Both the position numbers and the translations under genes were made by a program. Below, piece by piece: positions 17,954 to 58,456 of a DNA stretch of 64,000 nt (positions are counted from its first letter, which is position 1; each line of letters begins with the position of its first letter). Origin of the DNA: Ostrinia nubilalis (taxonomy: Eukaryota; Arthropoda; Insecta; Lepidoptera; Crambidae); contig NC_087119.1 in NCBI RefSeq assembly GCF_963855985.1, positions 9,588,001 through 9,652,000 of the forward strand, written 5' to 3'. Under the pieces are notes generated by a model, which was given only the letters and a program-made list of their open reading frames with translations, searched no databases and was not told where the DNA came from.

Positions 17954-18231
17954 AAAAACCGACTCCAAAAAACCTACACTAAAACGTAGAAAAATAATTA
18001 GTAATTACCTACTTATTTATTAGGACGAATTATTAATATTTATGTAGGTATACCATGATTGATACTTTTGGAGTCGGTGCAGGCAAACATGTTTCATAAT
18101 CTTGGCACCGACTCCAGAAGTATCAATCATGGTATACCTACATAAATATTAATAATTCGTCCTAATAAATAAGTAGGTAATTAGTAATTATTTTTCTACG
18201 TTTTAGTGTAGGTTTTTTGGAGTCGGTTTTT
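17954..18231. repeat. near-perfect 127-bp hairpin
   Basis: 17954-18080 pairs with 18105-18231 around a 24-base loop. I see one mismatch, near the loop (cttttgg against ccagaag). Both arms end in the accgactcca word. A foldback MITE is the simplest reading. Confidence 0.85.
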
Positions 18232-18570
18232 ATTTTAGTTCTAGTCTCGAACTAACAAATACGCGCTGTTGCGAGCTCGCTGATAGAATAGGTTTTTATA
18301 AATCGACAATGTCACAACTCTTCTGTACAACTCTCCTCGGTTTAAAGGCGTTACTTTACTAAATCTTCCTGGTTCCTCGCGGGCTAAGTGGTGTTAGAAT
18401 CATAGCTGGGCACCGTTAATCAAATAGTTAACTTCGTTAATCGTTAAATCGTTAATAAAAAAATTAACTTCGTTAAACGTTAAAACGTTACATTTAGCAA
18501 GATTTAACGGAAGTTAACGTTAATCGTTAATCCGTTAACACATGATAATAAAACGAAAAAAATAATTGTA

Positions 18571-33291: not shown

Positions 33292-35013
33292 CCCGGCGTC
33301 AATGACGCTGGGTCATATTGACCCGAGGCATTTTCAAAAGTTCATAATTTTTTTTTGCGGCCATTTTGTGGTTCGAGCGTTCGTAAAGCTGGAGATACAA
33401 TCTCCCTAAGCCCATTCCGTTAGTTAACTCAGTGTGACTCCGCTTGCGTAGCGAGATACACAGGCTTCAAATTAAAACGGGTCATTATGACCCGGCGTCA
33501 TCGGTGGCGCAGTGATTTTGTGGCTTACATTTATTCACTTATTTTGTGTTTAGTGCTAGCTTTTGTTGTTCTTTTTTAAGTTTTAGTCAAAATGACTGTT
33601 TAATGACCCAGCAAGAATGAAGCGCTGCTAGAAGAGTCGGATTCTGAGAGAGAAGAATTTTAGGCTGTAATAGTCAGAACTTAGGAATGGCAACGAATGT
33701 GAAAAATACGCAAGTAATGTGGACTCAGTCTTCGGATAATCTCAACCTTGCATTAGTATGACGCCGGCAAGTACGTCATACCACATTTACATGCCCAGAC
33801 CATTTGATTATATACTGCACCAGTTGCAGCAGTTCCATGGCTCTGAATGATGAAGTAGAAGACTGATCTCATTGTATATGCATATAAGAAGTTGATTTTA
33901 TCTCTTTTTCACTATATAACATTGTCGATTCCTATAAATATTAAAAATCTTTACCAAAATACAAAAATATAGACTCATTGTGTTTTTATACATGATTTTT
34001 TCATGTTTTGTTTAAAAATTAATAAAAAATTGATTTATATTATGTATTAGTATTATTTTTGTTTTATTAGCTCAGTAAAGAACCCTATAAACATAGACAG
34101 TAATTAAAATTAAGATTACTTGTTCAATTTCCTGAAAAGGATAGTGCCAGGGTCTGGACCAAGTGCTGCCCAGAATCAACACATAGTGCATTTTGTTCCT
34201 CAGACCTATACTAATGTGTGAACAAAAGCGCACTGAAATCTATCCCTGGAGTTAAGAGAAAAAAAGAGTTTTGTTTTGAATTATTTACATACAAAATATC
34301 ATCGATGTATACGTACTACGCATAAGATTTCGCGATTGTGGCATTAAATAACACTCGCTATGTTGAACTTAACCATACTGCATCCGTACACGTTACTTTA
34401 GTGCGATTTAGGCATTCTTTATAAACGATCTAGCGCTGTTTTAATTGTTTGGTAAGTTGACAGAAATTAATTATTTCCAAAATGAAGCAAGAAGTTTTAG
34501 TTTTTTATCCTTGCAAAAAGTTAATGTATTGGTGTATTACAATCGATTATTGAAGTTATTGTAAGCAAAAACTTCTTGCTCCATTTTGGAAATTATTAAT
34601 TTCTGTCAACTAACCAAACTACTGCAACAGCGCTTGATCGCTTAAAAAGAATGTCGAAGTCGTACTAAAGTAAGGTGTACGGATGCAGTATGGTTAACTT
34701 CAACATAGCGAGTGCTATTTAATGCCACAATCGCGAAATCTTATGGGTAGTACGTATACATCGATGATATTTTGTATGTAAATAATTCAAAACAAAACTC
34801 TTTTTTTCTCTTAACTCCAGGGATAGATTTCAGTGCGCTCCGGTTTACAAATTAGTATTGGCCTGAGGAATAAAATGCACTATGTTTTCATTCTGGGCAG
34901 CACTTGGTCCAACTTCCATACATGGATTGGCACTGTCCTTTATCGATGAAGTATGGGTCAATATGACCCGGGGTCATCGTCTTTGCAATAATTTTCACGT
35001 CATTGGCGCCGGG
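33292..35013. mobile_element. piggyBac-like element 1, inside odorant-receptor exon 5
   Basis: Flanked by TTAA at 33288-33291 and 35014-35017. The ends are CCCGGCGTCAATGACG and (inverted) CCCGGCGCCAATGACG, with one mismatch. A palindromic word gggtcaatatgacccg or a close variant lies near both ends. At about 33610-33700 a fragment reads LLEESDSEREEF, possibly the acidic start of a transposase, then stops. The middle is a large inverted repeat. Non-autonomous as seen. Confidence 0.88.
34137..34942. repeat. large inverted repeat inside piggyBac-like element 1
   Basis: 34137-34498 and 34568-34942 pair around a 69-base loop (sum 69066 through most of the stem), with scattered mismatches and small gaps toward the outside. 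The inner stem begins aaaacttcttgct. It is either a foldback element nested in the piggyBac or part of its own architecture. Confidence 0.8.
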
Positions 35014-35600: not shown

Positions 35601-35676
35601 TTAAGTGTCATATTCAAACAGAAATATAAAATGACAATCTTGAATACGTGAAATAAAAATACAATAAGACACTTAC

Positions 35677-35878
35677 TGCAGGATTTTCTGATGATATTTA
35701 ATTAAAAGTTTGAGTCTTTCTTCAAGTTCTGATTCGTTTAGTTCAGCGTTTCGTGCCTCGCCTATGTCGATGATGTTTGCCAACTCTATCTGTAGCGGCA
35801 GAAACAGCATACTCGCATTTATGATGATGGTACCCATCAGACAGCGAGAAGTTAGGGAAAAAATATCCATCAACAGAC
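35677..35878 (-). CDS. odorant-receptor-like gene, exon 4
   Basis: The acceptor cctttcag before 35878 is the one that keeps the phase of exon 3; an alternative at 35904 does not. It encodes LLMDIFSLTSRCLMGTIII, then a charged loop ending EERLKLLIKYHQKIL, and the donor GTAAGT follows 35677. The ERLKLLIKYHQKIL end resembles the third intracellular loop of insect odorant receptors. Confidence 0.78.
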
Positions 35879-36001
35879 CTGAAAGGTTACTAATGATTTG
35901 GTGGCTAACAGAAAATTAGACGCACCGCAATAGGTCCATCCACCTTACTCCTCCCATCTCGCAAGACTTTTCCAAATCTTTACAGCCTAACGCAGCATCA
36001 A

Positions 36002-36817
36002 TACAGGGTGGAAACGATAAGTGATCTCACTCGATTATTTCTAAACTACACAAGATATTGAAAAACTGGTTACTGATCCTGAAAGAGCTTCACGAGCTCT
36101 TTCTAACGGTATCAGTAATAGGTTACAGAATTAACTGGATCTATCAGAAAATTCAATGTTTTCAGCCTCCATACTAAATGTATGCCAGCCACACAATATG
36201 AAAAGTGTATTTTTTTTTTATTAAATAATAAACACTTAAAATGAACTCGTAAATTGCATTCTTATTTAAAATAATTCACGGAAAACATTGGTTCTAGGCT
36301 TTAGTTGCTATAATATTATCAAGACATGAGTGCCATGACTGTGGCAGTACTAAATGTATGGAAGTTGGAAACATTGAATTTTCGGATAGATCCAGTTTAT
36401 TTTGTAACTTATTGTTGGTACCGTTGGATAGAGCTCGAGAAGCACTTTCAGGATCAGTAACCAGTTTTTGGATAGCTTGTATAGTTTTTAATATTAAGTG
36501 GTTTTACTAAATGTATGGACGCTGGAAACATTGAATTTTCGGATAGATCCAGTTTATTTTGTAACCGTTAGATAGAGCTCGAGAAGCACTTTCAGGATCA
36601 GTAACCAGTTTTTGGATAGCTTGTATAGTTTTTAATATTAAGTGGTTTTACTAAATGTATGGAAGCTGGAAACATTGAATTTTCGGATAGATCCAGTTTA
36701 TTTTGTAACCGTTAGATAGAGCTCGTGAAGCAATTCCAGGATCAGTAACCAGTTTTTTTATATCTTGCATAGTTTAGAAATAATCGAGTGAGATCACTTA
36801 TCTTTTCCACCCTGTAT
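36002..36817. mobile_element. inverted-repeat element with internal tandem repeats (intron 3)
   Basis: tacagggtgg at the left and ccaccctgta at the right form the ends, possibly with a TA duplication. The inverted similarity extends over roughly 150 bp (gataagtgatctcactcgat...). Between them, ctaaatgtatgga...ggaaacattgaattttcgg starts at 36349, 36508 and 36650, three tandem units. No transposase. Confidence 0.75.
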
Positions 36818-39368: not shown

Positions 39369-40286
39369 GATCTCACTTCACTCTGGTTCCGACAAAACTG
39401 GTGACATGTAAACATGAGTTATTGATCTTTTTGAAGGAAGGGCAATTGAAATAATAGTATGCAATTACTGTACACATGGACAGTAGATAAATATTCAGAC
39501 AAATAAACACTATGATGTTACAATGCTATAATACCGCGCTACACAAATACAGGAATCAATTTACCTAGTGAGGTAAACTCTGGTAATTTCAACAGTGTCT
39601 CAACTCGTCACATTTTATAAAAACGCTAGTAAAAATTTCCACTAATTTCATATTAAACTTATCATTTTTTATATCAACATATCAAAATTTGTGGTATTTT
39701 AATGTACAATAAAAAATGGCAACAATTACCTAGTTAAAACATGCATGGAGGCTGAAAAAAAATTGTTGAAAATTCTCATTCCAACTCAATTTTATTGAAT
39801 AACTAGACTGTTTGGTCAGGTATACCTACAAATGCTTCCACAACATGAAGTATCAAGTCTAACTCTACACAAGAGTGGGTGCAACCAGTGCTGCAATAAG
39901 CTCTATAACTAGAACAATTTAACAATACAACTTTATCGTAATTATTTTTAATAGTGGTAGTTTTCGCGAAAAAAAATTAAAATCGAATGCTTATTTTCGC
40001 GCATTATTATGTCTAATAAGCTTTGTAGATAACTGTGTGTACGTATTTTTCTATGAACGAAGAAAATTATCCACGTGTGCCAATTTGGAAACAGCGCGCT
40101 GCCCTAAGGCGCTGCCCGAAAAGGGTTAGGGTATAATAAAAAAAATCTTTACGTAAATCGATTAAGTTACTGATTCCGAGTCCCCCCTAAAATTTTTGGC
40201 AAAGATGATGATGATGGGAATGTATGACAAACATGAAATTTTCCAATATTTACAGACTTTCCTAGAGCAGATGTCTCGAAAACTAT
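39369..40286. other. upstream of the odorant-receptor-like gene, no feature
   Basis: The promoter should lie here, but no TATA or initiator element could be singled out. No other gene was seen. Confidence 0.35.
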
Positions 40287-41230
40287 AGGGGAGAGTTCGG
40301 TATATTGTACCGCCGGGTAAACTGTACCACCCTCATATATTTAGTAAAGTATTTATTGAATGTCTGTAATTGCAACACTCAGCGATACACAACTAAATTC
40401 ATTGAATATTGGCCATATGGTTTTTGCCGTGACAATTAACACGTGTGTTTTATTTTGAAAAGATTTTTTTCATTGTTTTCAAGTAACTTTTGAGAATGCA
40501 TGTTTGGTTTGTAATTTTGTTAAAATTAATCACGCAGTGTTTCTAATGTATTAATTAGAAGCATAAATTAGTGTGGATTACAATTATTTGAAACATTTTT
40601 CGGTATTTATAAACTATATTTTTTACCGATTTTTTAAAAGCACTATCACCTAGTCGGTTAAATTGTACCACATCAAGTTGTATGGAATGTTACCAAAGGA
40701 TTTTTAAAAATTTTTTAGTAAATCATATTTTGAAGTTATCATAGCATAGTTATGTTTGACTAACAATAAATGAAAACAAAAGACTGGCAAAGTAGATTAC
40801 GTACAAGTGTGCGTTACGATAATTGGAATTACAAAACTTGTACTCAAAATCGTGATAACGTGTAAAACAATATCGATTGTCTATGTTATTAACTACTGTT
40901 CCTTTTCGTTACCTAATTTGTTAAGAATGTATCGTATAATATTTTGCCATAGATATTTTATAATCTTGAAATTTATGGAAATCCAATTTAGTAACCCTGT
41001 GGTACAAATTATCAAACCGGTTGGCTAAATTGGACCCAAGTTCTGAATTCTGAAAATTATTTTGTTGATTTGTGCTAAATATACAATAATCATGTTGATT
41101 AAAACCTATGAAATAGTAAGTTGAATAGTTTCTCTTTCATTATATACCATGGACATTAGCAAAAACAAAACAAAACTATGTGTAAAATGGGATTGAAAAA
41201 AACTGGCCCAAATTACCGGACTCTCCCTTA
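40287..41230. mobile_element. DNA element with inverted ends
   Basis: aggggagagttcggtatatt at the left and an inverse-related aattaccggactctccctta at the right. The word taaattgtaccac or similar recurs inside. No transposase frame. About 0.94 kb. Confidence 0.6.
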
Positions 41231-41879
41231 CAAGATATAGAAAAAACTTGGCTAATTCGCCTGTAGCTTTAATCAGCTTTTTTTGGTTGTCACTAGTAGG
41301 TACGCATAGTCACGGTAATACTATCATAGTTTCCAAGAATTTTATTAAACGAAAAACCGAAAAATGAGACCTTCAAAATTTTTTTTTATTGTTTGTCTTC
41401 AAATTGACATAAAAAAAAATTCGCTCAGGGAATACGAAATTTTGGAAGTCATGATGACTGATATAATAGTGACAGCGAGGATGGTGACCTTCTTGATAAA
41501 TGTGTCTACTACTGGTCAAAGGCCTCCCCTACGGATTTCCTGCGGATAAATGCGTAAATACCGCGTTATTCAGCAGTTTAACCAAGCAATATGAAGGTTG
41601 AAATTTATACCCGCTATCTGAAAGTTTCAAGAGCAATTGTAAACTTGCCTGCGCCGGTTTTAGGCCGTTTTAAATAAGGCTACAGTTGCATACAGCCGTA
41701 TTTATTACAGCTAAAATTAAATTTTGGTCTTACAAAACGGCGTTGCTGACTTTACAATAGTTGAAAAACTGTTATAAAGCGATAAAATAGGGGTTGCTTA
41801 TTATTGCTCAATATCGTCTACGAATTCAGAACTCATGATCAAGTAGAGAGAGAGAGAAGTTCATAAGTGCCACTTACAT

Positions 41880-41950
41880 TTTGACGTTCATAAGTGCCAC
41901 TTGTGGTCTAAACTGAATAAATATTTTAGATTTTTATTTTGAATTTTTTT
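41880..41950 (-). mobile_element. LINE tail in left arm
   Basis: Reverse complement of a CAAAAT-rich run followed by atttattcagtttagacc, acaagtggcacttatgaacg. Same tail as at 1996-2057. Mirrored at about 56457-56527. Confidence 0.6.
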
Positions 41951-42096
41951 TTGAAGAGAAAAAGACCGAGAGAGAGAGAGACTGAGAGAGAGAGAGAGAT
42001 GACGCTGTTAAACTCTTCGACAGATAGGTTCTAGGATGTGACACATACACCTTTGCTTGCAATTTGACAGATGCTTAAGGACTGGGTTTTAAAGCA

Positions 42097-42305
42097 ATGA
42101 GGGCTATCGTTTTAGCGCTCACCAGTTAGCGCCACTGTAGAGTAAGGTCCTGTCACTTGCTAGTAGCGAAGACAGTGGCACCAACTTGTGAGCGTTAAAG
42201 TGGTAGGAGGACTATCGCATTTGCACTCATCAAGATGGCGCCACTGTAGAGTAAGGTCCTGTCAATCGCCAGGGGTGCCAACTGTTAAGTATAAAAACGA
42301 TAGCC
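42097..42305. mobile_element. MITE in left arm (gagggctatcg ends)
   Basis: gagggctatcgtttt at the left and aaaacgatagccctc at the right. The internal block ccactgtagagtaaggtcct occurs twice. Mirrored at 56102-56310. Confidence 0.75.
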
Positions 42306-43547
42306 CTCATTACAAGCGCTGCAAACAGTAAAACCATTTAGAAAGTTAGCACATTTAATATTCATCCAGTTATTATAATAATGGAAGCATCAAAATAGTG
42401 TCTAACTTCACTCTTACAATTTTGAAATGGCTGCTAAATTAATTTTAAATACCTCCAGAAAGGAATTTGTAAAATAATTAGGAGACAAGATCCGTCTCCT
42501 TTCCCCTTTTCCCTGCAACGGTGAATAATAATTAAAAGTAAGTAATAATGGGCAGGCAAATAAAGCAAACCGTACTGGTATGCATATTTCACAAACTAAT
42601 TTGGCCCGTCGTGTCGATCCAATTATACGAATGTTGCCCTCTCGCCGATGTCCCCTTAGTTTCACCAGTTATAAATTTGATATTCAGCTAGGGCTGCCAA
42701 AACGAAGCTTATAAGTTATAACGCTCGGCGTTAAAAATGTTTTTGGGGTGCCTCAGTTTTACATTGCTCGGTGTTAGGTAAATATTGTTTTTGGGGTTAC
42801 AAAATTATTTTAATGGTTGAAGTTTATATTATGTTTTAAATTATATTTAATAATAACATCTGCGGATCTGTTACAAAAGTAAAAGTTTTGATTTGCGTGG
42901 TTTTGAGAAACAGAGAAGAAGACACTTTGGTGAATAAAAAATATAAAATTTCTTAATAATTGTAGCAATATTGAGCACACCGTCTGTTTATAAACAAATT
43001 AAATGTAATTGCACTATAACATGTTATATTTTTTTTAAGTAAGTAATGTAATTTTAGTGATAAATCAAACGCTTATTGATGTTAAATAATCAATTAACCC
43101 ATTTATTAAGTGTATATCCAGTTCTAGGAATAATAACAGTACAGCAAAACGGGTATTTATTTGGAACTAAAGACAAATATTATTTTCATCATTTGCATAA
43201 ATACGGCAGCACATAAACATACATATTAATTTAATAATGTGCAGACAACATCACGTAAGCATTGTCATAGGTTTCATTTTACAACAAGAATTAAAATGTG
43301 CTGCTGCTATACAAGGGTATGTTATCGAAAAAATAATACGTCACGTACAGGTCACACAACAAGAGCATAGGGTCATTCCACCGGCCAAGAAAATCACGTG
43401 TCCGTGGCCAAAAAGTACCCGAATATCATAATATTTTAGTAACAAATATTTTTATCTAATAGTATAACTTTGGTTCTTGTTGTTAAACCACAGAGATAGT
43501 TAATAATAGTTAATTAAGTAATTTAAAAAAAATCGTAAGTCGTCAAA

Positions 43548-44640
43548 AATTATGCCTGCTATTTGGACCTATCAAAGGCGTTCGACCTAGTCTCATATAA
43601 CATACTATGGGAAAAGCTAAGCAACGAAACAAACATACCGCCTGAGATCGTGTCAATGTTTGGGTATTGGTACAACAATCAAAAGAACAGTGTTAAGTGG
43701 GCGGGGGCTTTCTCGGACGTGTACACGTTGGAGTGCGGGGTGAGGCAGGGGGGGTTGACCTCGCCAAGCCTCTTCAACTTGTACATGAACCGACTGATCG
43801 AGGGGCTCAGCAGCACCAAGGTCGGGTGTCATATCGACGGCGTTTGTATTAATAATATTAGTTATGCTGATGACATGGTGCTGCTGACCCCGTCTATTGC
43901 AGCTATGCGTAAACTGCTTAAGATATGCGAGGAGTATGCGATGGCACATGGACTCAAATATAATGTGTCGAAGAGTGAGTTCATGATCTTCAAATCGCGG
44001 ACTAAAACATACTCATCAGTTCCGCACTTAACACTTTGTGGTATGCCTCTGAAACGGGTTAACTCATTTAAATACCTTGGTCACTGGGTTACAGATGACT
44101 TAAAGGATAATGTAGACATAGAAAGGGAGCGCAGGGCGCTGTCAGTGCGTTGTAATATGTTGGCACGTAGGTTTGCGCGTTGTAAGGATGAAGTAAAAAT
44201 CACGCTTTTTAAAGCTTACTGCCAGTCTCTTTACACGTGCAGCCTATGGGTCAGCTTTACCCAGCGCGCTTACAGCGCACTGCGTGTGCAGTACAACAAT
44301 GCGTTCAGGGTGCTACTTGGCCTGCCGCGGTTCTGCAGCGCGTCAACCATGTTTGCGGAAGCGCACACCGACGGCTTCCACGCGATAATTCGGAAGCGGA
44401 GCGCATCGCTCCTAGAGCGTCTCCGCGCCAGTACAAATGGCATCCTGAGGGCATTGGCTGACAGGTGGGACTCGCCGCTGCTGGGGCGCTGGCTTAGCTT
44501 GCACGTCTCCAGTGCTATGTAAGCGGCTTCATATTTCATTATTTGTATCTTACTAACATAGGCTAAGTGAAAATTGTTACTAACACGATTATGGACCCCG
44601 GTCTGACAATAAATTTTTTCAATTTCAATTTCAATTCAAT
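43548..44640 (+). pseudogene. non-LTR retrotransposon, 5'-truncated reverse transcriptase (left arm)
   Basis: An open frame of about 320 codons to the stop at 44522 starts inside RT: ACYLDLSKAFD, then VRQGGLTSPSLFNLYMNRLI, ISYADDMVLL and KSEFMIFKS, followed by the thumb and a C-terminal segment. The catalytic YADD is present. There is no proper start codon (the frame opens on TTG) and endonuclease and fingers are missing, so it is a truncated insert. The 3' end has an (ATTTCA)n-like tail at about 44615-44645. Probably CR1/jockey-related. The uninterrupted frame suggests a fairly recent insertion. Inverted twin at 53767-54859. Confidence 0.85.
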
Positions 44641-44847
44641 TTCAAAAATTGATTACCACGACGTGTCCGCGCTCCCGATTTCAGAACAAATTTGCTCGTA
44701 TAAATTAATCCGTTATTATTACCGCTTTCAATGCTTATGTAATCGATTACTGATTAAATAAACATTGATAAATTAAATACGATATAACTATATCACTAAA
44801 AGGTTTTGTAAAATAACTATTTGAAGTTGTGTCCGGGCGTTAACCGT

Positions 44848-46534
44848 GATTACCCCGACACGTCACTAATGTGCGCCTACGTCCCTAGCTACGCAATTTA
44901 GAAACGAGCTCTATCCTCCCCCGTGAACCTTTAGTGGTGGCCTGCGTGCCGAGGTGATCGGTAATGCAACTCGTCGCAGGATTTCGGAGTTATCGAGATA
45001 AGAATATGATTACCCCGACCTTGGTTCAGTGCACGATTGATTTACTCTATCCTGTTTTTTTAGGTTTCTTTACATGGAAAGTTCTTGAGAATGTACAGGA
45101 ATAATGGTCCATGTAACCGCATTTTTGTGTATTAAAACATATGGGATTCAACTTACAGATTGGGCAGGGCTCAGGATAAACCTTAATTTTTTGACTACCC
45201 CGACCTTGATTACCCCGATTTTTGTCACCGAGTAATCAATAATACTGTAATTTTTACTAATGAATGATTAACTAAATAACGTTTAATAAGCAAAATTACC
45301 CTTTACTAAAATGAAATCCTATCTCCTATTAATACATAATATTATTATCCCTCAAAATTGGCAAGACCCCTGGACTCGACCTTATCACCGCTGAAATGCT
45401 GTAAGCCGATGTAAACTCCGCCGTTAACGTCCTGACACCTGTCTTCGAAAACATCTGGATGGAAGAGGAACTCCCAGACGACTGGCATAAGGGGCTTCTA
45501 ATTATTGTGCCGAAAAAAGGGTAAAGCAAGGGTATCAGTACCGGAAGACCCAAGAGATGCGATCTGGAGTGAGGATTGCACACCGTTGGTGCAGAGGATG
45601 TCCAACGAATCCACAATTTCACTTACCTCGGGAGCATCGTTTCAGAGCCTAGAGGTACCGAAGAGGACATCACTTCGCGCATTGCCAAGGCCAGAGCTAT
45701 TTTCGCACAACTTCGAGCCGTATGGCAGTCACGGAAATTGACCCAAGCAAGATCAAAATATTCGGGTCCAACGTCAAACCAGTTCTGCTCTATAAGCGTG
45801 AAACGTGGAAGGTCACTAAGGTTATCTCGCACCAGCTGCAGATCTTCTTCAGCCGCTGTCTTCGCCGAATTCTCCAAAATCTTCAAACGACGAACTTTTG
45901 GAGCGCTGCCACGAAATACCGATCTTTCAGCAGAATAAACGCTGCAAGTGGAACTGGATCGGCCATACTCTCCGAAGGGACCCCGATCACATCCCCAAGC
46001 AGGCTCTAGATTGGAACCCCCAGGGAAAATGCAAACGTGGTCGCGCCAAAAAAACATAGCGGCGCACTGTTAAGACTTGGAGCGAGATCAAATACGAAGC
46101 TCAAGACCGAATGCGATGGAGGACTGTTGTGGACGCCTTCTGTCCCATATAGGAGACATAGGACATTGAGTCACTAATATTATATGTATATGTATGTTTT
46201 TTACTCTTTTACGCAACAACTACTTAACAGATTTTGTTGAAACTTTACAATATTGTCGCTTATACATCAAAATAACAAATGGCTAGTTATAATAACATTT
46301 ATTTTACCATAACTTAAAAAAAACCTTAGAAAATAAAATATTTTGTTTTATTTTTGATTACTCTGACTCCCAACTTTGATTACCCCGACCATGAAAATGT
46401 TGATGTCGCATAACTTTTTATTCCTGCTTGCTACAGATGGGCCAATATAAAAAATATGCTCGTAATAATGTCTATTTTGAAATGTTTTACCTAAACTTAC
46501 TCTAAATTCAAAAATAAAAAAGGTCGGGGTAATC
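44848..46534. repeat. dispersed GATTACCCCGAC motif cluster (left arm)
   Basis: GATTACCCCGAC or a one-base variant occurs at 44848, 45008, 45193, 45208 and 46378, and in inverse at 46522. The copies lie around the decayed LINE at 45345-46155. They may be subterminal binding repeats of an older DNA transposon. Confidence 0.6.
45345..46155 (+). pseudogene. decayed LINE fragment with internal deletion (left arm)
   Basis: Pieces in order: KIGKTPGLDLITAEML near 45345, WMEEELPDDWHKGLLIIVPKKG at about 45455-45525, then a jump past the RT core to FTYLGSIVSEPRGTEEDITS, SRIAKARAIFAQLRAVW, NVKPVLLYKRETWK and finally AQDRMRWRTVVDAF near 46105-46145, across frameshifts. The order matches an RTE/CR1-related ORF2 with its YADD core deleted. 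Twin at 52252-53062. Confidence 0.75.
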
Positions 46535-46620
46535 AACAAAATAATCCAGATCCGGAGAATGACCGAGTAACACAAGCAAAGATTTTGTATCTGTATACTC
46601 AGGCCAAATAAGTCTGTGGG

Positions 46621-46738
46621 TCTAGACAAAGTGCAAATTATAATCGCAAACCAGTCGAAAAGTGGTCGAAAAGCCCCTTTTTTGTATGGAGTTTTGACGG
46701 ATTCGATTTTCGATTCGATCAAAAAGTGCGTTTTGTAA
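46621..46738 (-). mobile_element. MITE, CTAGACAAA family (left arm)
   Basis: Close to the copy at 23252-23368 in inverse orientation. The left end tctagacaaag is kept, while the other end is altered (gcgttttgtaaaa). Twin at 51669-51786. Confidence 0.75.
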
Positions 46739-46745
46739 AATAACA

Positions 46746-48083
46746 CACCACGCAGTAGGTACTATCGAATGTGGCAACCCTAACCACCCCTTCTTTGTTA
46801 AAAACGATATGCTCATTTATAGAAAAAGTTCTATAGCTATAAATTATAAATTTGCTCTTAATTATTAATATTCACGTTAATTAAAGTTGCTCGATGGAAA
46901 GAGAGCTTTTATTGTATGCTATCACGATACTGAGTGACCTTGTTTATTTAGTTAATGAGTTTTTTTCTATGTTTTTTCTATGTTTGGACACTACGGTGTG
47001 CTTTGTGCAGTTAGTTCGTGATTATTTTCTCATTACTGTGGATTATTAACTAAAGTACGGCCAACGAGAAGCGATACCAAATGTAAACAAACCCAATGTC
47101 ATGGTCATTGGGAATAGCAGGGGTGCATAACTTTTTAATAGTAGATTACATAAGTTGTTGAAAATAAATAAATAAAAAAAGAAAATGATACCAGCTACAA
47201 ATTCGATTCTCGATTTAGCAGTATACTTACCAGATACCACGTTTGAACTAATTTAATCATTTTATCAATAAAAAATAAAAAATGTTTTTGTAAACAATAT
47301 AGTTTTGAAGAATTTTGTTTTTGTTATAATTTGAATTATTATATAATGTAGATTTAAATGAAATTACGAGAATAATAATAATATTTCTGCTTCACAATGT
47401 GCCCGGTGTATGGCCACAGGCCTACCCTTTTTTCATAGAGACTTAATAAAATAAGAACCGACAAGTAACAGATTCGCCCTCGTGTTATAGGTACTAAATG
47501 TTGACGAAACCGTCTGACTTTGATATATTTTGGCGGGAGAACGAGACATTTTGACATATTTCAGAAGTGTTGCCAACATTGAAACATTCCCACTAAGAAT
47601 GGAGAGCATTTTCACAAATTAAAAAATAATCCTTTCTGGAATTCAAGGTGAAAAACTAAGGCTTAAAAATGTACTGATCATTGAAAATGGTTATTTGAAT
47701 TTTTATTATCATATTTTTGAAGTTACAAAAAAAATTGGGAAATTATTTTTCTATTACTGGACTCCCTGGCCAATAATCCATGGGTTACAAACATTTTCAT
47801 GAAAATCCTTTTGTTAATAAAATCTTAGCTTCATAAAATAACCAATAGGCTTTTCGCCCAAATTTCAATAATTAGTTAATAATATACCTTGATGCCTATT
47901 TTATACAAATGCGCTCTTATCTTGGAAAAAATCTCATCTCCAAGGATTATTTTGCATTTTCAATAATATTTGACATTATAGCCCTCAAAAACGCTCACGA
48001 CCGTCATAGCGTCTTGAATGACGTCACGCCTTGCAAAACACAGCTGTTTTAGTACGGAAATTGTAAAGTTAAATTAATTACAA
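46746..48083. other. left-arm sequence without recognised feature
   Basis: AT-rich DNA between a MITE and the THAP exon. Short frames here occur in both arms only because the arms are copies. A TGACGTCA word is near 48020, about 60 bp upstream of the THAP ATG. Confidence 0.35.
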
Positions 48084-49009
48084 ATGGATCCATCGTATTT
48101 CAAGTCATGTATAGTGCCCCAATGTACAAGCACAAGTATAAAAACGCCAAACAAGTTATTTATTAGTATGTACGTACCAAACAATCAGCAGATACGTAAA
48201 ATATGATGTCCATTGTTTAGCAACAAAATCAAGGATGTATAGCCTGACCAGGAACATAAAAACCCTGGCATAGAGGCGCGTCAATTGCATTTGATAGTGC
48301 AACACTGAGTACAGTCGTACCTGTGTTAAATTAATAGGCTAACTTTATGTATCAGGATTCAGGATTACGGGCTAATTTGATATTTTCATAAATTAACGAA
48401 AAAATATTATTATAGGTAACCTGGTTTAAATAAATTAAATGAAACCATCAATCGAGCTAGTAGGATTTATTTTATTATTCATCAATAATAAATGTGTCTT
48501 TCTTTCTTTCTTTCTTTCAATAATCAAATTCAGAACTTTAATATTCAACTGCAATGTCTGCTCATGAACGCTTCAAACTCGGTACTTCTTTCCCAATTCC
48601 ATAAAATTCAACACTTAGAAAGTGACAAAAAATTTTAAAATTGGTAGTTGAAACAAACCACAGCTAATTTTCATAGTGGACTGTACTATACGATAAACAT
48701 GTCAGTCAATTTGACAACCTTTGTCGGAAACATTATTCAATGAAAATATTGTCCGAATCCTTAGTATTTCTCTTCGACAAATACTTTAACACATTGTGAA
48801 CCACTTTTCTTTTAGCAATTTAATTCACAAAATCAATTGCGCACATTTAAAATAAAGTTTGTTTACACTTTGACAGCAATAGACTGACATGCAATGAAGT
48901 TTTCAGTTACTGTTGCCATTAAAAGAAATTAGTACCATTAGTTTTCCGCAGCATGGCGAGGGTTTTTATGTTCCTGGTCAGGCTATATTTTTGTGAAGAT
49001 CATTTCAAT
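48084..49009 (+). pseudogene. THAP-domain exon interrupted by a MITE
   Basis: From ATG 48084 the frame reads FKSCIVPQCTSTSIKTPNKL, the C-x-x-x-C start of a THAP zinc finger. It goes on to a TGA at 48204 where the family's conserved tryptophan is expected, then FSNKIKDV. A MITE (48242-48983) follows. Behind it the frame resumes as YFCEDHFN, supplying the C-x-x-H part, and ends at the donor GTAAGT at 49010. Removing the MITE and one TATA copy restores phase across the junction. THAP proteins bind DNA in host regulators and in P-element-like transposases; which type this was cannot be told. Stop and insertion make it non-functional. Confidence 0.8.
48242..48983 (-). mobile_element. MITE T copy 1 (inside the THAP exon)
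   Basis: Ends GCCTGACCAGGAACATAAAA and its inverse, flanked by TATA on both sides (48238-48241 and 48984-48987), consistent with a TATA target duplication. 742 bp with a (CTTT)5 microsatellite. It lacks two segments (13 and 19 bp) present in copy 2. No transposase. Confidence 0.85.
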
Positions 49010-49391
49010 GTAAGTAGAAAGATTTTATTTACAAAAAACAGATTTTTTTTTTTAAAACTAAGGCAAACTTAACTCTAAACGAAATAAAAATATAAACTTA
49101 TTTTACTCAAAAATAAAAGTGTGTCCGTGAGGCAAAGAGGCGAGAATGCTGGCTGCATTTCCTCGCTGAATGGCAATACTAAGCCTTTGTGCAAGGAAAG
49201 AGCCAGCATTTAGATTTTCCGAAATTTTAATTAATTTAGGGGAAATGGTCCGAAACAGTAAGTTAGATATATCACACAACATAATCTGATATCATATACC
49301 TACATATTATAATGAAATTGTTGAACTTTGTTTAAGAATAATGATAACAACAAAATGAGGTTAGGAACTATTCATGACATATTTAAATATA
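48988..49391. other. unique centre of the palindrome spacer
   Basis: About 400 bp not repeated in the arms: the end of the THAP exon, a GTAAGT donor and AT-rich DNA. The start of MITE T copy 2 follows. No second THAP exon could be assigned here. Confidence 0.5.
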
Positions 49392-50167
49392 GCCTGACCA
49401 GGAACATAAAAACCCTCGCCATGTTGCGGAAAACTAATGGTACTAATTTCTTTTAATGGCAACAGTAACTGAAAACTTCATTGACATGTCACCTTGCATG
49501 TCAGTCTATTGCTTTCAAAGTGTAAACAAACTTTATTTTAAATGTGCGCAATTGATTTTGTGAATTAAATTGCTAAAATCTTTTTATAGTCGTGACAGAA
49601 AAGTGGTTCACAATGTGTTAAAGTATTTGTCGAAGAGAAATACTAAGGATTCGGACAATATTTTCATTGAATAATGTTTCCGACAAAGGTTGTCAAATTG
49701 ACTGACATGTTTATCGTATAGTACAGTCCACTATGAAAATTAGCTGTGGTTTGTTTCAACTACCAATTTTAAAATTTTTTGTCACTTTCTAAGTGTTGAA
49801 TTTTATGGAATTGGGAAAGAAGTACCGAGTTTGAAGCGTTCATGAGCAGACATTGCAGTTGAATATTAAAGTTCTGAATTTGATTATTGAAAGAAAGAAA
49901 GAAAGAAAGACACATTTATTATTGATGAATAATAAAATAAATCCTACTAGCTCGATTGATGGTTTCATTTAATTTATTTAAACCAGGTTACCTATAATAA
50001 TATTTTTTCGTTAATTTATGAAAATATCAAATTAGCCCGTAATCCTGAATCCTGATACATAAAGTTAGCCTATTAATTTAACACAGGTACGACTGTACTC
50101 AGTGTTGCACTATCAAATGCAATTGACGCGCCTCTATGCCAGGGTTTTTATGTTCCTGGTCAGGCTA

Positions 50168-50323
50168 TACATCCTTGATTTTGTTGCTAAACAATGGACA
50201 TCATATTTTACGTATCTGCTGATTGTTTGGTACGTACATACTAATAAATAACTTGTTTGGCGTTTTTATACTTGTGCTTGTACATTGGGGCACTATACAT
50301 GACTTGAAATACGATGGATCCAT
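50168..50323 (-). pseudogene. THAP exon 5' part, duplicate in right arm
   Basis: Mirror of 48084-48239, with the same in-frame TGA. The C-terminal YFCEDHF piece is absent because the arm boundary lies inside the neighbouring MITE. Confidence 0.8.
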
Positions 50324-51668
50324 TTGTAATTAATTTAACTTTACAATTTCCGTACTAAAACAGCTGTGTTTTGCAAGGCGTGACGTCATTCAAGACGCTA
50401 TGACGGTCGTGAGCGTTTTTGAGGGCTATAATGTCAAATATTATTGAAAATGCAAAATAATCCTTGGAGATGAGATTTTTTCCAAGATAAGAGCGCATTT
50501 GTATAAAATAGGCATCAAGGTATATTATTAACTAATTATTGAAATTTGGGCGAAAAGCCTATTGGTTATTTTATGAAGCTAAGATTTTATTAACAAAAGG
50601 ATTTTCATGAAAATGTTTGTAACCCATGGATTATTGGCCAGGGAGTCCAGTAATAGAAAAATAATTTCCCAATTTTTTTTGTAACTTCAAAAATATGATA
50701 ATAAAAATTCAAATAACCATTTTCAATGATCAGTACATTTTTAAGCCTTAGTTTTTCACCTTGAATTCCAGAAAGGATTATTTTTTAATTTGTGAAAATG
50801 CTCTCCATTCTTAGTGGGAATGTTTCAATGTTGGCAACACTTCTGAAATATGTCAAAATGTCTCGTTCTCCCGCCAAAATATATCAAAGTCAGACGGTTT
50901 CGTCAACATTTAGTACCTATAACACGAGGGCGAATCTGTTACTTGTCGGTTCTTATTTTATTAAGTCTCTATGAAAAAAGGGTAGGCCTGTGGCCATACA
51001 CCGGGCACATTGTGAAGCAGAAATATTATTATTATTCTCGTAATTTCATTTAAATCTACATTATATAATAATTCAAATTATAACAAAAACAAAATTCTTC
51101 AAAACTATATTGTTTACAAAAACATTTTTTATTTTTTATTGATAAAATGATTAAATTAGTTCAAACGTGGTATCTGGTAAGTATACTGCTAAATCGAGAA
51201 TCGAATTTGTAGCTGGTATCATTTTCTTTTTTTATTTATTTATTTTCAACAACTTATGTAATCTACTATTAAAAAGTTATGCACCCCTGCTATTCCCAAT
51301 GACCATGACATTGGGTTTGTTTACATTTGGTATCGCTTCTCGTTGGCCGTACTTTAGTTAATAATCCACAGTAATGAGAAAATAATCACGAACTAACTGC
51401 ACAAAGCACACCGTAGTGTCCAAACATAGAAAAAACATAGAAAAAAACTCATTAACTAAATAAACAAGGTCACTCAGTATCGTGATAGCATACAATAAAA
51501 GCTCTCTTTCCATCGAGCAACTTTAATTAACGTGAATATTAATAATTAAGAGCAAATTTATAATTTATAGCTATAGAACTTTTTCTATAAATGAGCATAT
51601 CGTTTTTAACAAAGAAGGGGTGGTTAGGGTTGCCACATTCGATAGTACCTACTGCGTGGTGTGTTATT

Positions 51669-51786
51669 TTACAAAACGCACTTTTTGATCGAATCGAAAA
51701 TCGAATCCGTCAAAACTCCATACAAAAAAGGGGCTTTTCGACCACTTTTCGACTGGTTTGCGATTATAATTTGCACTTTGTCTAGA
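51669..51786 (+). mobile_element. MITE, CTAGACAAA family (right arm)
   Basis: Inverted twin of 46621-46738. Confidence 0.75.
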
Positions 51787-51872
51787 CCCACAGACTTATT
51801 TGGCCTGAGTATACAGATACAAAATCTTTGCTTGTGTTACTCGGTCATTCTCCGGATCTGGATTATTTTGTT

Positions 51873-53559
51873 GATTACCCCGACCTTTTTTATTTTTGAA
51901 TTTAGAGTAAGTTTAGGTAAAACATTTCAAAATAGACATTATTACGAGCATATTTTTTATATTGGCCCATCTGTAGCAAGCAGGAATAAAAAGTTATGCG
52001 ACATCAACATTTTCATGGTCGGGGTAATCAAAGTTGGGAGTCAGAGTAATCAAAAATAAAACAAAATATTTTATTTTCTAAGGTTTTTTTTAAGTTATGG
52101 TAAAATAAATGTTATTATAACTAGCCATTTGTTATTTTGATGTATAAGCGACAATATTGTAAAGTTTCAACAAAATCTGTTAAGTAGTTGTTGCGTAAAA
52201 GAGTAAAAAACATACATATACATATAATATTAGTGACTCAATGTCCTATGTCTCCTATATGGGACAGAAGGCGTCCACAACAGTCCTCCATCGCATTCGG
52301 TCTTGAGCTTCGTATTTGATCTCGCTCCAAGTCTTAACAGTGCGCCGCTATGTTTTTTTGGCGCGACCACGTTTGCATTTTCCCTGGGGGTTCCAATCTA
52401 GAGCCTGCTTGGGGATGTGATCGGGGTCCCTTCGGAGAGTATGGCCGATCCAGTTCCACTTGCAGCGTTTATTCTGCTGAAAGATCGGTATTTCGTGGCA
52501 GCGCTCCAAAAGTTCGTCGTTTGAAGATTTTGGAGAATTCGGCGAAGACAGCGGCTGAAGAAGATCTGCAGCTGGTGCGAGATAACCTTAGTGACCTTCC
52601 ACGTTTCACGCTTATAGAGCAGAACTGGTTTGACGTTGGACCCGAATATTTTGATCTTGCTTGGGTCAATTTCCGTGACTGCCATACGGCTCGAAGTTGT
52701 GCGAAAATAGCTCTGGCCTTGGCAATGCGCGAAGTGATGTCCTCTTCGGTACCTCTAGGCTCTGAAACGATGCTCCCGAGGTAAGTGAAATTGTGGATTC
52801 GTTGGACATCCTCTGCACCAACGGTGTGCAATCCTCACTCCAGATCGCATCTCTTGGGTCTTCCGGTACTGATACCCTTGCTTTACCCTTTTTTCGGCAC
52901 AATAATTAGAAGCCCCTTATGCCAGTCGTCTGGGAGTTCCTCTTCCATCCAGATGTTTTCGAAGACAGGTGTCAGGACGTTAACGGCGGAGTTTACATCG
53001 GCTTACAGCATTTCAGCGGTGATAAGGTCGAGTCCAGGGGTCTTGCCAATTTTGAGGGATAATAATATTATGTATTAATAGGAGATAGGATTTCATTTTA
53101 GTAAAGGGTAATTTTGCTTATTAAACGTTATTTAGTTAATCATTCATTAGTAAAAATTACAGTATTATTGATTACTCGGTGACAAAAATCGGGGTAATCA
53201 AGGTCGGGGTAGTCAAAAAATTAAGGTTTATCCTGAGCCCTGCCCAATCTGTAAGTTGAATCCCATATGTTTTAATACACAAAAATGCGGTTACATGGAC
53301 CATTATTCCTGTACATTCTCAAGAACTTTCCATGTAAAGAAACCTAAAAAAACAGGATAGAGTAAATCAATCGTGCACTGAACCAAGGTCGGGGTAATCA
53401 TATTCTTATCTCGATAACTCCGAAATCCTGCGACGAGTTGCATTACCGATCACCTCGGCACGCAGGCCACCACTAAAGGTTCACGGGGGAGGATAGAGCT
53501 CGTTTCTAAATTGCGTAGCTAGGGACGTAGGCGCACATTAGTGACGTGTCGGGGTAATC
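51873..53559. repeat. GATTACCCCGAC motif cluster (right arm)
   Basis: Inverted twin of 44848-46534. Confidence 0.6.
52252..53062 (-). pseudogene. decayed LINE fragment (right arm)
   Basis: Inverted twin of 45345-46155, with the same frameshifts and missing RT core. Confidence 0.75.
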
Positions 53560-53766
53560 ACGGTTAACGCCCGGACACAACTTCAAATAGTTATTTTACA
53601 AAACCTTTTAGTGATATAGTTATATCGTATTTAATTTATCAATGTTTATTTAATCAGTAATCGATTACATAAGCATTGAAAGCGGTAATAATAACGGATT
53701 AATTTATACGAGCAAATTTGTTCTGAAATCGGGAGCGCGGACACGTCGTGGTAATCAATTTTTGAA

Positions 53767-54859
53767 ATTGAATTGAAATTGAAATTGAAAAAATTTATTG
53801 TCAGACCGGGGTCCATAATCGTGTTAGTAACAATTTTCACTTAGCCTATGTTAGTAAGATACAAATAATGAAATATGAAGCCGCTTACATAGCACTGGAG
53901 ACGTGCAAGCTAAGCCAGCGCCCCAGCAGCGGCGAGTCCCACCTGTCAGCCAATGCCCTCAGGATGCCATTTGTACTGGCGCGGAGACGCTCTAGGAGCG
54001 ATGCGCTCCGCTTCCGAATTATCGCGTGGAAGCCGTCGGTGTGCGCTTCCGCAAACATGGTTGACGCGCTGCAGAACCGCGGCAGGCCAAGTAGCACCCT
54101 GAACGCATTGTTGTACTGCACACGCAGTGCGCTGTAAGCGCGCTGGGTAAAGCTGACCCATAGGCTGCACGTGTAAAGAGACTGGCAGTAAGCTTTAAAA
54201 AGCGTGATTTTTACTTCATCCTTACAACGCGCAAACCTACGTGCCAGCATATTACAACGCACTGACAGCGCCCTGCGCTCCCTTTCTATGTCTACATTAT
54301 CCTTTAAGTCATCTGTAACCCAGTGACCAAGGTATTTAAATGAGTTAACCCGTTTCAGAGGCATACCACAAAGTGTTAAGTGCGGAACTGATGAGTATGT
54401 TTTAGTCCGCGATTTGAAGATCATGAACTCACTCTTCGACACATTATATTTGAGTCCATGTGCCATCGCATACTCCTCGCATATCTTAAGCAGTTTACGC
54501 ATAGCTGCAATAGACGGGGTCAGCAGCACCATGTCATCAGCATAACTAATATTATTAATACAAACGCCGTCGATATGACACCCGACCTTGGTGCTGCTGA
54601 GCCCCTCGATCAGTCGGTTCATGTACAAGTTGAAGAGGCTTGGCGAGGTCAACCCCCCCTGCCTCACCCCGCACTCCAACGTGTACACGTCCGAGAAAGC
54701 CCCCGCCCACTTAACACTGTTCTTTTGATTGTTGTACCAATACCCAAACATTGACACGATCTCAGGCGGTATGTTTGTTTCGTTGCTTAGCTTTTCCCAT
54801 AGTATGTTATATGAGACTAGGTCGAACGCCTTTGATAGGTCCAAATAGCAGGCATAATT
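53767..54859 (-). pseudogene. non-LTR reverse transcriptase fragment (right arm)
   Basis: Inverted twin of 43548-44640. The same 319-codon frame (54844-53885), with no residue difference from the left copy in the translated frame. Confidence 0.85.
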
Positions 54860-56101
54860 TTTGACGACTTACGATTTTTTTTAAATTACTTAATTAACTA
54901 TTATTAACTATCTCTGTGGTTTAACAACAAGAACCAAAGTTATACTATTAGATAAAAATATTTGTTACTAAAATATTATGATATTCGGGTACTTTTTGGC
55001 CACGGACACGTGATTTTCTTGGCCGGTGGAATGACCCTATGCTCTTGTTGTGTGACCTGTACGTGACGTATTATTTTTTCGATAACATACCCTTGTATAG
55101 CAGCAGCACATTTTAATTCTTGTTGTAAAATGAAACCTATGACAATGCTTACGTGATGTTGTCTGCACATTATTAAATTAATATGTATGTTTATGTGCTG
55201 CCGTATTTATGCAAATGATGAAAATAATATTTGTCTTTAGTTCCAAATAAATACCCGTTTTGCTGTACTGTTATTATTCCCAGAACTGGATATACACTTA
55301 ATAAATGGGTTAATTGATTATTTAACATCAATAAGCGTTTGATTTATCACTAAAATTACATTACTTACTTAAAAAAAATATAACATGTTATAGTGCAATT
55401 ACATTTAATTTGTTTATAAACAGACGGTGTGCTCAATATTGCTACAATTATTAAGAAATTTTATATTTTTTATTCACCAAAGTGTCTTCTTCTCTGTTTC
55501 TCAAAACCACGCAAATCAAAACTTTTACTTTTGTAACAGATCCGCAGATGTTATTATTAAATATAATTTAAAACATAATATAAACTTCAACCATTAAAAT
55601 AATTTTGTAACCCCAAAAACAATATTTACCTAACACCGAGCAATGTAAAACTGAGGCACCCCAAAAACATTTTTAACGCCGAGCGTTATAACTTATAAGC
55701 TTCGTTTTGGCAGCCCTAGCTGAATATCAAATTTATAACTGGTGAAACTAAGGGGACATCGGCGAGAGGGCAACATTCGTATAATTGGATCGACACGACG
55801 GGCCAAATTAGTTTGTGAAATATGCATACCAGTACGGTTTGCTTTATTTGCCTGCCCATTATTACTTACTTTTAATTATTATTCACCGTTGCAGGGAAAA
55901 GGGGAAAGGAGACGGATCTTGTCTCCTAATTATTTTACAAATTCCTTTCTGGAGGTATTTAAAATTAATTTAGCAGCCATTTCAAAATTGTAAGAGTGAA
56001 GTTAGACACTATTTTGATGCTTCCATTATTATAATAACTGGATGAATATTAAATGTGCTAACTTTCTAAATGGTTTTACTGTTTGCAGCGCTTGTAATGA
56101 G

Positions 56102-56310
56102 GGCTATCGTTTTTATACTTAACAGTTGGCACCCCTGGCGATTGACAGGACCTTACTCTACAGTGGCGCCATCTTGATGAGTGCAAATGCGATAGTCCTC
56201 CTACCACTTTAACGCTCACAAGTTGGTGCCACTGTCTTCGCTACTAGCAAGTGACAGGACCTTACTCTACAGTGGCGCTAACTGGTGAGCGCTAAAACGA
56301 TAGCCCTCAT
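56102..56310. mobile_element. MITE in right arm (gagggctatcg ends)
   Basis: Inverted twin of the MITE at 42097-42305. Confidence 0.75.
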
Positions 56311-57527
56311 TGCTTTAAAACCCAGTCCTTAAGCATCTGTCAAATTGCAAGCAAAGGTGTATGTGTCACATCCTAGAACCTATCTGTCGAAGAGTTTAAC
56401 AGCGTCATCTCTCTCTCTCTCTCAGTCTCTCTCTCTCTCGGTCTTTTTCTCTTCAAAAAAAAATTCAAAATAAAAATCTAAAATATTTATTCAGTTTAGA
56501 CCACAAGTGGCACTTATGAACGTCAAAATGTAAGTGGCACTTATGAACTTCTCTCTCTCTCTACTTGATCATGAGTTCTGAATTCGTAGACGATATTGAG
56601 CAATAATAAGCAACCCCTATTTTATCGCTTTATAACAGTTTTTCAACTATTGTAAAGTCAGCAACGCCGTTTTGTAAGACCAAAATTTAATTTTAGCTGT
56701 AATAAATACGGCTGTATGCAACTGTAGCCTTATTTAAAACGGCCTAAAACCGGCGCAGGCAAGTTTACAATTGCTCTTGAAACTTTCAGATAGCGGGTAT
56801 AAATTTCAACCTTCATATTGCTTGGTTAAACTGCTGAATAACGCGGTATTTACGCATTTATCCGCAGGAAATCCGTAGGGGAGGCCTTTGACCAGTAGTA
56901 GACACATTTATCAAGAAGGTCACCATCCTCGCCTCCAAAAGTGGTTCACAATGTGTTAAAGTATTTGTCGAAGAGAAATACTAAGGATTCGGACAATATT
57001 TTCATTGAATAATGTTTCCGACAAAGGTTGTCAAATTGACTGACATGTTTATCGTATAGTACAGTCCACTATGAAAATTAGCTGTGGTTTGTTTCAACTA
57101 CCAATTTTAAAATTTTTTGTCACTTTCTAAGTGTTGAATTTTATGGAATTGGGAAAGAAGTACCGAGTTTGAAGCGTTCATGAGCAGACATTGCAGTTGA
57201 ATATTAAAGTTCTGAATTTGATTATTGAAAGAAAGAAAGAAAGAAAGACACATTTATTATTGATGAATAATAAAATAAATCCTACTAGCTCGATTGATGG
57301 TTTCATTTAATTTATTTAAACCAGGTTACCTATAATAATATTTTTTCGTTAATTTATGAAAATATCAAATTAGCCCGTAATCCTGAATCCTGATACATAA
57401 AGTTAGCCTATTAATTTAACACAGGTACGACTGTACTCAGTGTTGCACTATCAAATGCAATTGACGCGCCTCTATGCCAGGGTTTTTATGTTCCTGGTCA
57501 GGCTATACCAACAAACTTCACTTTTTT

Positions 57528-57916
57528 TTAAATATAGATTTTCACGGCTCTGGGTCAAGACTTCACATGAAGAAAAGTGTTGCCAGTCGGGTCTTGTCAG
57601 AAATTACCAGAAATATAAAAAAATTTAACCTATTTTTAAAATGTACTCTCTCATCTTATTCATATGGGAAACTATAGTAACGGTGTATGTTTTATATCAC
57701 TTAGTTGTACTGTACAGTACCTATATCTAACATTATTTGCCAAAACTCGAGACAATGTAAAATTATTTGTAGAGCCCTATAAAGGAAAAATATCTACAAA
57801 TTTCGAAAAATCACCTAACAGGTTACAAAAATAACCTTCTAGCAACACTCAAATGTTGGCAATGACAATCTGGCTTAAAAGGGCTTGCACCCAGAGCCGT
57901 AAAAAACTATATTTAA
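57528..57916. mobile_element. MITE with 28-bp inverted repeats
   Basis: Left taaatatagattttcacggc...tctgggt pairs with right acccagagccgtaaaaaact...atattta, with a few mismatches. Non-coding. Confidence 0.65.
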
Positions 57917-58456
57917 AAAAATAGAAAACGTGACGTAACGCTTTCTGATTGGTGTTTGCTGTCACGTGACTTATGGGCCATTTTTCCGAATTTATTTGCT
58001 AAAAATATAAATAATCTTTAATTATTATTTTATGTAGTTTCGTTTTTCATTAAGTAGGTATACGACTATCTTAATAGTTATACAATCTTATACTGCAGAT
58101 TTATTCACTGTGGATACAAGCCTATTTAAAGAACAAGAATGATGCCAATTTTATATACCTAATCCAAGTTGATTATGATGACGATAATGATGATTGATGA
58201 TCAATACATATTTTATTATCGTGGGTCATCTTATTTATATACCTACTACGGGTCTTTAGGAACCGATCCGAACGCTAAAGCAAATGAGGTTATATTATAA
58301 TCAGAAAAGTATTTACTTTACTTATTTATGGACACTAAAAACCAAAAACAAGCCGTCTCTTTGACATTTTTACTTTTTTTTTCGTTTGACGAAATTGGGC
58401 TCTCAGAATCAAAATTTGTAAATTAGTAATAATTTTAGCTTAGAAATAGTAACATA
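57917..58456. other. upstream of the RIIa-domain gene
   Basis: No element was identified. It should hold the 5' UTR and promoter of the gene starting at 58457; no core promoter motif was clear. Confidence 0.4.

Follow-up and report, generated by a model that had tools for sequence, protein, structure and literature searches.

A window of 64,000 nucleotides from Ostrinia nubilalis (contig NC_087119.1) contains a near-perfect palindrome that is probably a young, local inverted segmental duplication, produced by misrepair at two transposons lying in inverted orientation. Nested transposons at the locus, compared with their empty sites in other parts of the genome, reveal the polarity of the event at the level of single bases: the original arm, the insertion site of its copy, and the junction that used homology.

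Results

Arm identity and age

The left and right arms align as reverse complements with two mismatches in 7336 positions and no indels (Table 1). This alignment confirmed the arm coordinates, the constant sum of 98407, the absence of gaps and the 786-bp spacer that the sequence-only reading had described. The mismatch that it had noted at 43126/55281 is also present, but its count of a single substitution was wrong, as a second lies at 44160/54247. Both are transitions (A versus G, and T versus C, in left-arm orientation), and the second is synonymous in a leucine codon of a reverse-transcriptase fragment. The longest exact inverted repeat within 40001-58000 is 4650 bp, compared with a maximum of 18 bp in 20 mononucleotide shuffles. 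Since the spacer includes the inner portions of two transposon copies in inverted orientation, imperfect symmetry extends inwards as far as 48987/49388, which leaves a true loop of 400 bp. The inner 571 bp of the arms recur once more immediately beyond the right arm, a third copy that the earlier reading did not mention.

Table 1. Features of the palindrome and its surroundings (positions in the window).
Feature	Position	Strand	Basis or remark
Left arm, original copy	41475-48810	+	Arm alignment; T and A sequence contiguous into spacer
Non-LTR reverse transcriptase fragment, left arm	43539-44522	+	RVT_1, E 1.1e-22; mirrored at 53885-54868
Repeat T, first part	47844-48239	+	Weak THAP-like similarity, below cut-off
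Transposon A, 750 bp	48238-48987	+	Terminal inverted repeats, TA target duplication; 13 bp and 19 bp of family sequence missing
Repeat T, second part	48988-49021	+	Between A and 245-bp repeat
245-bp dispersed repeat, inserted in T	49022-49266	.	Genome copies
Repeat T, third part	49267-49387	+	T-copy alignment
Transposon A', one end, inverted versus A	49388-49598	-	Unbroken family sequence, two private substitutions
Right arm, copy	49597-56932	-	Arm alignment; located within A'
CTCC, unassigned, at outer junction; no homology	56933-56936	.	Arm versus A' comparison
Transposon A', other end	56937-57507	-	571 bp identical to 48238-48808 and 49599-50169
Repeat T, last part, beyond palindrome	57508-58126	+	Adjoins 49387 in other copies

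The arm differences support the earlier view that the duplication is very young, and no indel separates the arms even at a (TCTT)5 tract or at A or T runs 8-9 bases long. The suggestion that two haplotypes account for the mismatches fared less well: an allelic divergence of 0.2% predicts 14.7 differences (P for two or fewer = 5e-5), although this calculation does not hold for an inbred line. We also considered an older palindrome whose arms are kept identical by gene conversion between them, as in the palindromes of mammalian sex chromosomes. Arm identity above 99.9% is compatible with conversion, and A and A' may already have exchanged sequence (see below); however, the arm frames searched gave no recognised host gene to preserve, and no observation demands age, hence we regard this reading as very improbable.

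Transposons A and A' and the polarity of the event

A and A' have the terminal repeats and TA target duplication of TA-inserting terminal-inverted-repeat transposons; A' is inverted relative to A, and 400 bp separate them. The 13 bp and 19 bp missing from A are present in 11 of 11 other aligned family copies. Of 38 listed matches outside the window, five were aligned, and the other 33 were assessed from their listed spans alone. The transposon end had no match among viral contigs, and the window gave no hits to Rfam families or in a tRNA scan.

Both elements lie in a further repeat, T, which is interrupted here by the nested insertions A, a 245-bp repeat, and A', and is contiguous in all six of the other copies examined (out of 13 T-like matches listed). 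In each of these six, 48239 and 48988 are adjacent across a TA, as are 49387 and 57508; the empty site is clean for A, and approximately four extra bases lie to the left of that for A'. Positions 49387 and 57508 were therefore once neighbours, and A' spans 49388-57507. It follows that the right arm is a 7338-bp insertion (49599-56936) inside A', at which no base of A' was lost; comparison with family copies likewise showed that A' continues from 49598 to 56937 without base loss. The insert is the reverse complement of the outer 571 bp of A and the 6.76 kb further out, with CTCC added. Because T and A sequence run contiguously from the left arm into the spacer, that arm is the original. Given this single-insertion anatomy, a duplicate-read artefact, against which the single substitution had already been held to argue, is unlikely.

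An inversion of the spacer after a staggered break was ruled out, since the orientation of T is constant from 47844 through 49387 to 58126, here and in 6/6 other copies. A THAP reading frame across A was not retained as proof of polarity: its Pfam score was 18.1 bits against a cut-off of 23.9, and the joined query carried TATA where the empty sites show TA, hence the continuity of T was used instead.

Junctions and origin of the copied segment

The inner junction lies within the homology between A and A', where inverted repeats pre-existed. At the outer junction (56932, CTCC, 56937), by contrast, the left-flank and A' sequences do not match. A reading of 49578-49596 as filler DNA, with the inner junction formed by end joining, was considered and rejected, as other copies of the element contain these bases and A lacks them; a search of the window for a source gave only short matches, of 12 bases at most. 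Transposition of the arm as a unit was also rejected, because no target duplication was seen relative to the A family; AAAA flanks the insert on both sides but is element sequence. The copied segment is local, as judged from the arm parts 41475-42600 and 46800-48237, each of which has end-to-end matches at only two places, both in the window (495-Mb genome; best 40 candidates scored for each).

The arms hold transposon debris and repeats as far as their content was recognised. Relatives of the reverse-transcriptase fragment are 60-76% identical to it among the 120 matches listed. No host gene was recognised in six frames of at least 79 amino acids searched against Pfam, which gave one reverse transcriptase and sub-cut-off matches; short exons could be missed by such a search.

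A shared 571-bp half

The three 571-bp copies are mutually identical. All three carry a 35-bp insertion and one substitution that are found in 0/11 other aligned copies. Outside this half, one substitution and two deletions are private to A, and two substitutions to A'. The spread of A/A' differences is uneven when all events are counted (Fisher p 0.0013 or 0.0050, depending on gap placement), and for substitutions alone p is 0.019 or 0.062, again by gap placement. From these patterns, the 571-bp half was probably exchanged between A and A' by gene conversion, either during the duplication or earlier. The shared half would also be explained if A and A' were sister copies of one parent that carried both marks. 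The repair reading set out below is equally likely with or without this conversion step.

Discussion

We propose that a double-strand break occurred within A', and that its left end would have paired with the inverted, homologous A, either by folding back or on the sister chromatid. About 7.3 kb may then have been copied outward from A and released at 41475, and the copied strand would lastly have been attached by end joining to the right end of A', which was still free. An inner junction in homology and an outer junction without it support this reading. A caveat is that the right piece of A' begins at most two bases from the end of A/A' identity, where an assembly artefact could also place the boundary, since a perfect 571-bp repeat is an expected branch point of an assembly graph. 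The resulting locus is hairpin-prone and probably neutral.

In yeast, fold-back at inverted repeats near a break is an established source of inverted duplications (PMC10622511, PMC6103520). Similar to the events described there, the Ostrinia nubilalis locus has inverted repeats near the inferred break, and the copy starts in a repeat and heads away. Unlike the yeast route, which as described yields a dicentric or translocated chromosome (PMC10622511), copying here stops after 7.3 kb and the copy was rejoined nearby, on the opposite side of the same element. Synthesis-dependent strand annealing, as outlined in PMC7407515, also has one end copy a homologous donor before the ends are rejoined; here, however, the donor would be an ectopic copy in inverted orientation on the same chromosome, copying passes the homology by 6.76 kb, and rejoining took place without homology. 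The locus is a clear example of an already known type of accident.

A more specific version of the repair reading can be formulated from the shared half. The converted, perfect 571-bp stem, which ends at a 19-base bulge, might have been extruded as a hairpin or cruciform and cut precisely at the A' bulge, so that repair of the cut built the palindrome. We put this forward as a speculative possibility, with the odds against it.

Fork template switching (FoSTeS/MMBIR or ODIRA-like) at A/A', followed by a second switch back into A', would need no prior double-strand break. A similar product is described for a human F8 inverted duplication, with one junction in inverted repeats and the other with little or no homology (PMC10766186), and DUP-TRP/INV-DUP events likewise have a junction inside inverted repeats (PMC4352052). 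Unlike in those human accounts, neither duplication nor deletion nor triplication was seen flanking the arms here, and the repeats are dispersed transposon copies; rather than an inverted triplication flanked by direct duplications, the arms are present in two copies and only the 571-bp half in three. A return at most two bases from the point of departure in A' is natural for a two-ended break but is not required of a wandering fork. Fork switching is thus unlikely in our judgement, even though it and break repair cannot be separated from one product.

Slightly more doubtful still is an artefact in which a fold-back molecule, formed around A/A' by amplification or strand switching, was built into the contig and rejoined to the right flank at the 571-bp repeat. 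The palindrome is indeed centred between 571-bp repeats that are identical and inverted, and its outer junction falls where that repeat starts; fold-back of A and A' during amplification would yield the same spacer, and collapse is expected to render all three 571-bp copies identical. Approximately one third of mitochondrial reads were palindromic in one amplified tardigrade data set (PMC13265396). Nevertheless, a fold-back contig is expected to continue into the inverted left flank, whereas this one exits at sequence not recognised as a repeat, and A' resumes after four extra bases with no joining overlap. The two arm mismatches, and the absence of N characters from the window and from 200 kb downstream, also speak against an artefact.

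The sequence-only reading had raised the idea of a long hairpin RNA as a source of endo-siRNA. By geometry, 7.3-kb arms around a 786-bp loop would form double-stranded RNA if transcribed through, and Drosophila hpRNAs offer a precedent in the accounts cited (PMC10292708, PMC10317233), but with the recognised arm content given above and an origin accounted for without function, a long inverted repeat under selection as such a locus is extremely improbable; this role has no support, and the palindrome shows no sign of function.

In natural genomes, long near-perfect palindromes are, according to PMC10766186, unstable and rare, hence the birth of one is seldom caught. We found no comparable case from Lepidoptera among the open-licence papers listed. 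The arm-converting palindromes described for sex chromosomes (primate Y/X, willow) share arms above 99.9% identity and a short spacer, whereas the present palindrome is transposon-born, has no host gene recognised in the arm frames searched, and has an arm identity that youth would explain. The contig that carries it is, at 27.76 Mb, the longest of nine compared in length out of 52. Inverted duplications are also described in the invertebrate assemblies of Folsomia candida and Adineta vaga (PMC5490193); those are reported as collinear gene blocks, one with a synonymous rate of 0.2, while the Ostrinia nubilalis arms are 99.97% identical with no host gene recognised.

If extrusion of a converted stem were true and general, inverted transposon pairs would ripen by conversion into nurseries of palindromes, and fresh palindromes would be expected to begin at the edges of converted tracts. 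A perfect inverted repeat in an insect assembly requires neither function nor assembly error.

Anatomy of the palindrome and its surroundings

The two arms, separated by a 786-bp spacer, are reverse complements over 7336 positions, with two mismatches and no indels (the comparison was done twice). The coordinates and gapless match claimed in a sequence-only reading were thus recovered, and its single substitution became two. An exact inverted repeat of 4650 bp occurs in the region, versus at most 18 bp in mononucleotide shuffles (n = 20). We found no N bases in the window plus 200 kb downstream (264 kb), and no other comparable repeat pair within that span, where the runner-up inverted pair was 1472 bp at 93.6%. 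Two arm segments, 41475–42600 and 46800–48237, were searched against the genome (495 Mb, 52 contigs); among the best 40 candidates scored (of 2789 for the former), each matched end-to-end only at its two places in the window. The outer end of the arm lies ~245 bp past a high-copy repeat, and no recognised repeat was found at 41475 itself. Other features of the neighborhood are listed in the table.

Features of the palindrome and its neighborhood (window positions unless stated; the window is NC_087119.1:9588001–9652000)
Feature	Position	Strand	Remarks
Left arm	41475–48810	+	
Right arm	49597–56932	−	
Mismatch 1	43126/55281		Transition
Mismatch 2	44160/54247		Transition; synonymous, inside reverse-transcriptase fragment
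Element A	48238–48987	+	750 bp
A', inverted copy of A	49388–57507		Includes the 7338-bp insertion
Dispersed repeat in spacer	49022–49266		245 bp
Repeat T, outer parts	47844–48239, 57508–58126		~1.15 kb; THAP-like similarity weak, at 18.1 bits against a cut-off of 23.9
High-copy repeat	40600–41230		
Pao-type LTR retrotransposon	2438–8863	−	Intact-looking; 243-bp LTRs identical to each other; flanked by GGTAC on either side; 1751-aa open frame with Pao peptidase domain; a very recent insertion
Self-complementary stretch	17949–18236		288 bp, 92.5%; similar to the fold-back element at 34155–34911
Inverted pair	21525–21685/21863–22023		161 bp, 99.4%, 177-bp spacer; small, young inverted duplication, could be a second example
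Fold-back element	34155–34911		757 bp; own reverse complement at 88%, no spacer
Similarity to 7tm odorant receptors	35676–35915	−	Weak, below cut-off (E 0.04); frames nearby and the tandem repeat might be part of a receptor gene
Tandem repeat	36420–36775		144 bp
Fold-back unit beyond window	84190–85528 of joined 264 kb (NC_087119.1 ~9672190–9673528)		1.34 kb, self-complementary at 93%

The right arm is an insertion in A'

Element A has terminal inverted repeats matching five places within the window, and its relatives elsewhere in the genome are ~747 bp long. An alignment of 11 elements from 10 fetched loci showed that A lacks 13 bp and 19 bp present in all 11 relatives, and carries a 35-bp GAAA-rich insertion with an accompanying substitution found in none. 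A genome search gave 41 matches: three inside the window (100%, full length) and 38 outside at 87–99%, the full-length ones all at or below 94%; five of these 38 are in the alignment, and the other 33 were judged by span alone (one spans 599 bp).

Repeat T, which starts at ~47844, has 13 listed matches outside the window, six of which were examined (loci L050–L055). In all six, 47844–48240, 48984–49015, 49258–49385 and 57506–58126 are consecutive, the last part being interrupted and less similar in L054. Empty sites were present in each of the six (flanks joined by script), with TA as the insertion point of A, and 49387 and 57508 are adjacent in each, save ~4 bases at the A' site absent from those copies. 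These alignments indicate that three insertions have broken up T: A, the 245-bp repeat and A', the last lying inverted to A 400 bp away. T itself may be what remains of a THAP-domain transposon.

Against the family alignments, A' is correct up to 49598 and picks up again at 56937 with nothing missing; therefore, 49599–56936 is a 7338-bp insertion in A'. Its first 571 bp are identical to the outer half of A; the reverse complement of the sequence between A and 41475 follows, and CTCC closes the insertion. Since T crosses the left arm and continues into the spacer, this arm is the original. A/A' homology covers the inner junction but not the outer one.

Coding content

Six arm frames of at least 79 aa were searched against Pfam, a search that a short-exon gene could escape. 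The sole above-cut-off match was an RVT_1 reverse transcriptase. DUF6451 appeared below cut-off in two frames, in a stretch at 45.4–46.1 kb that we read as a probable second, decayed retrotransposon. The reverse-transcriptase fragment has 697 relatives at E ≤ 0.001; among the 120 matches listed, all species-named relatives are moths or butterflies, from genera that we take to belong to Lepidoptera. This Pfam search of six frames found no function for the palindrome. A long hairpin RNA could in principle arise if the locus is transcribed through.

Conversion and the position of the break

Relative to the 11 other copies, the changes private to A in the half adjoining the spacer are one substitution and two deletions; those private to A' are two substitutions. 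Over the 571-bp half A and A' are identical, and both bear the two private marks. The differences are spread unevenly. According to how gaps are placed, Fisher p is 0.0013 or 0.0050 when all events are counted, and 0.019 or 0.062 when only substitutions are. The likeliest reading of these patterns is that A and A' exchanged sequence by conversion, before or during the duplication event; possibly, they instead share this half as sister copies of one marked parent.

The split point of A' coincides with the edge of the identical half; the chance of such closeness is ~0.7% within the element, assuming uniform breakpoints over 763 bp in a calculation set up for an earlier junction model. The coincidence reflects either a directed break, or assembly-graph branching there, or chance. 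For a directed break, a perfect A/A' hairpin stem would end at a 19-base bulge. An assembly artefact is suited by this split as well as biology is, and we consider it an improbable source of the palindrome. Two haplotypes, also raised before, would be a poor source of the arms unless the line were inbred, with two differences observed versus 14.7, 36.7 and 73.4 expected at 0.2, 0.5 and 1% divergence.

Proposed mechanism and age

The most likely course would begin with a double-strand break in A'. The left end of the broken A' would pair with the inverted A, ~7.3 kb would be copied from A outward, and end joining would connect the copied strand to the right end of A'. The locus itself shows the anatomy, the polarity and the two types of junction, whereas the break, the polymerase step, the joining pathway and the conversion are inferred. 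Yeast studies show that fold-back and inverted duplication follow breaks near inverted repeats (PMC10622511), and that the spacing of the repeats settles whether fold-back or inter-sister annealing occurs (PMC6103520). A human F8 event described in PMC10766186 parallels the locus: inverted repeats hold one of its junctions, and homology at the other is slight or absent.

At the Heliconius mutation rate of 2.9 × 10–9 per site and generation, the two differences between the 7336-bp arms would correspond to an age of about 47,000 generations (Poisson range 5,700–170,000), an estimate that later arm-to-arm conversion would make too low. The event is of a type already known rather than a new class, and the locus provides an unusually readable inverted duplication whose reconstruction is clean.
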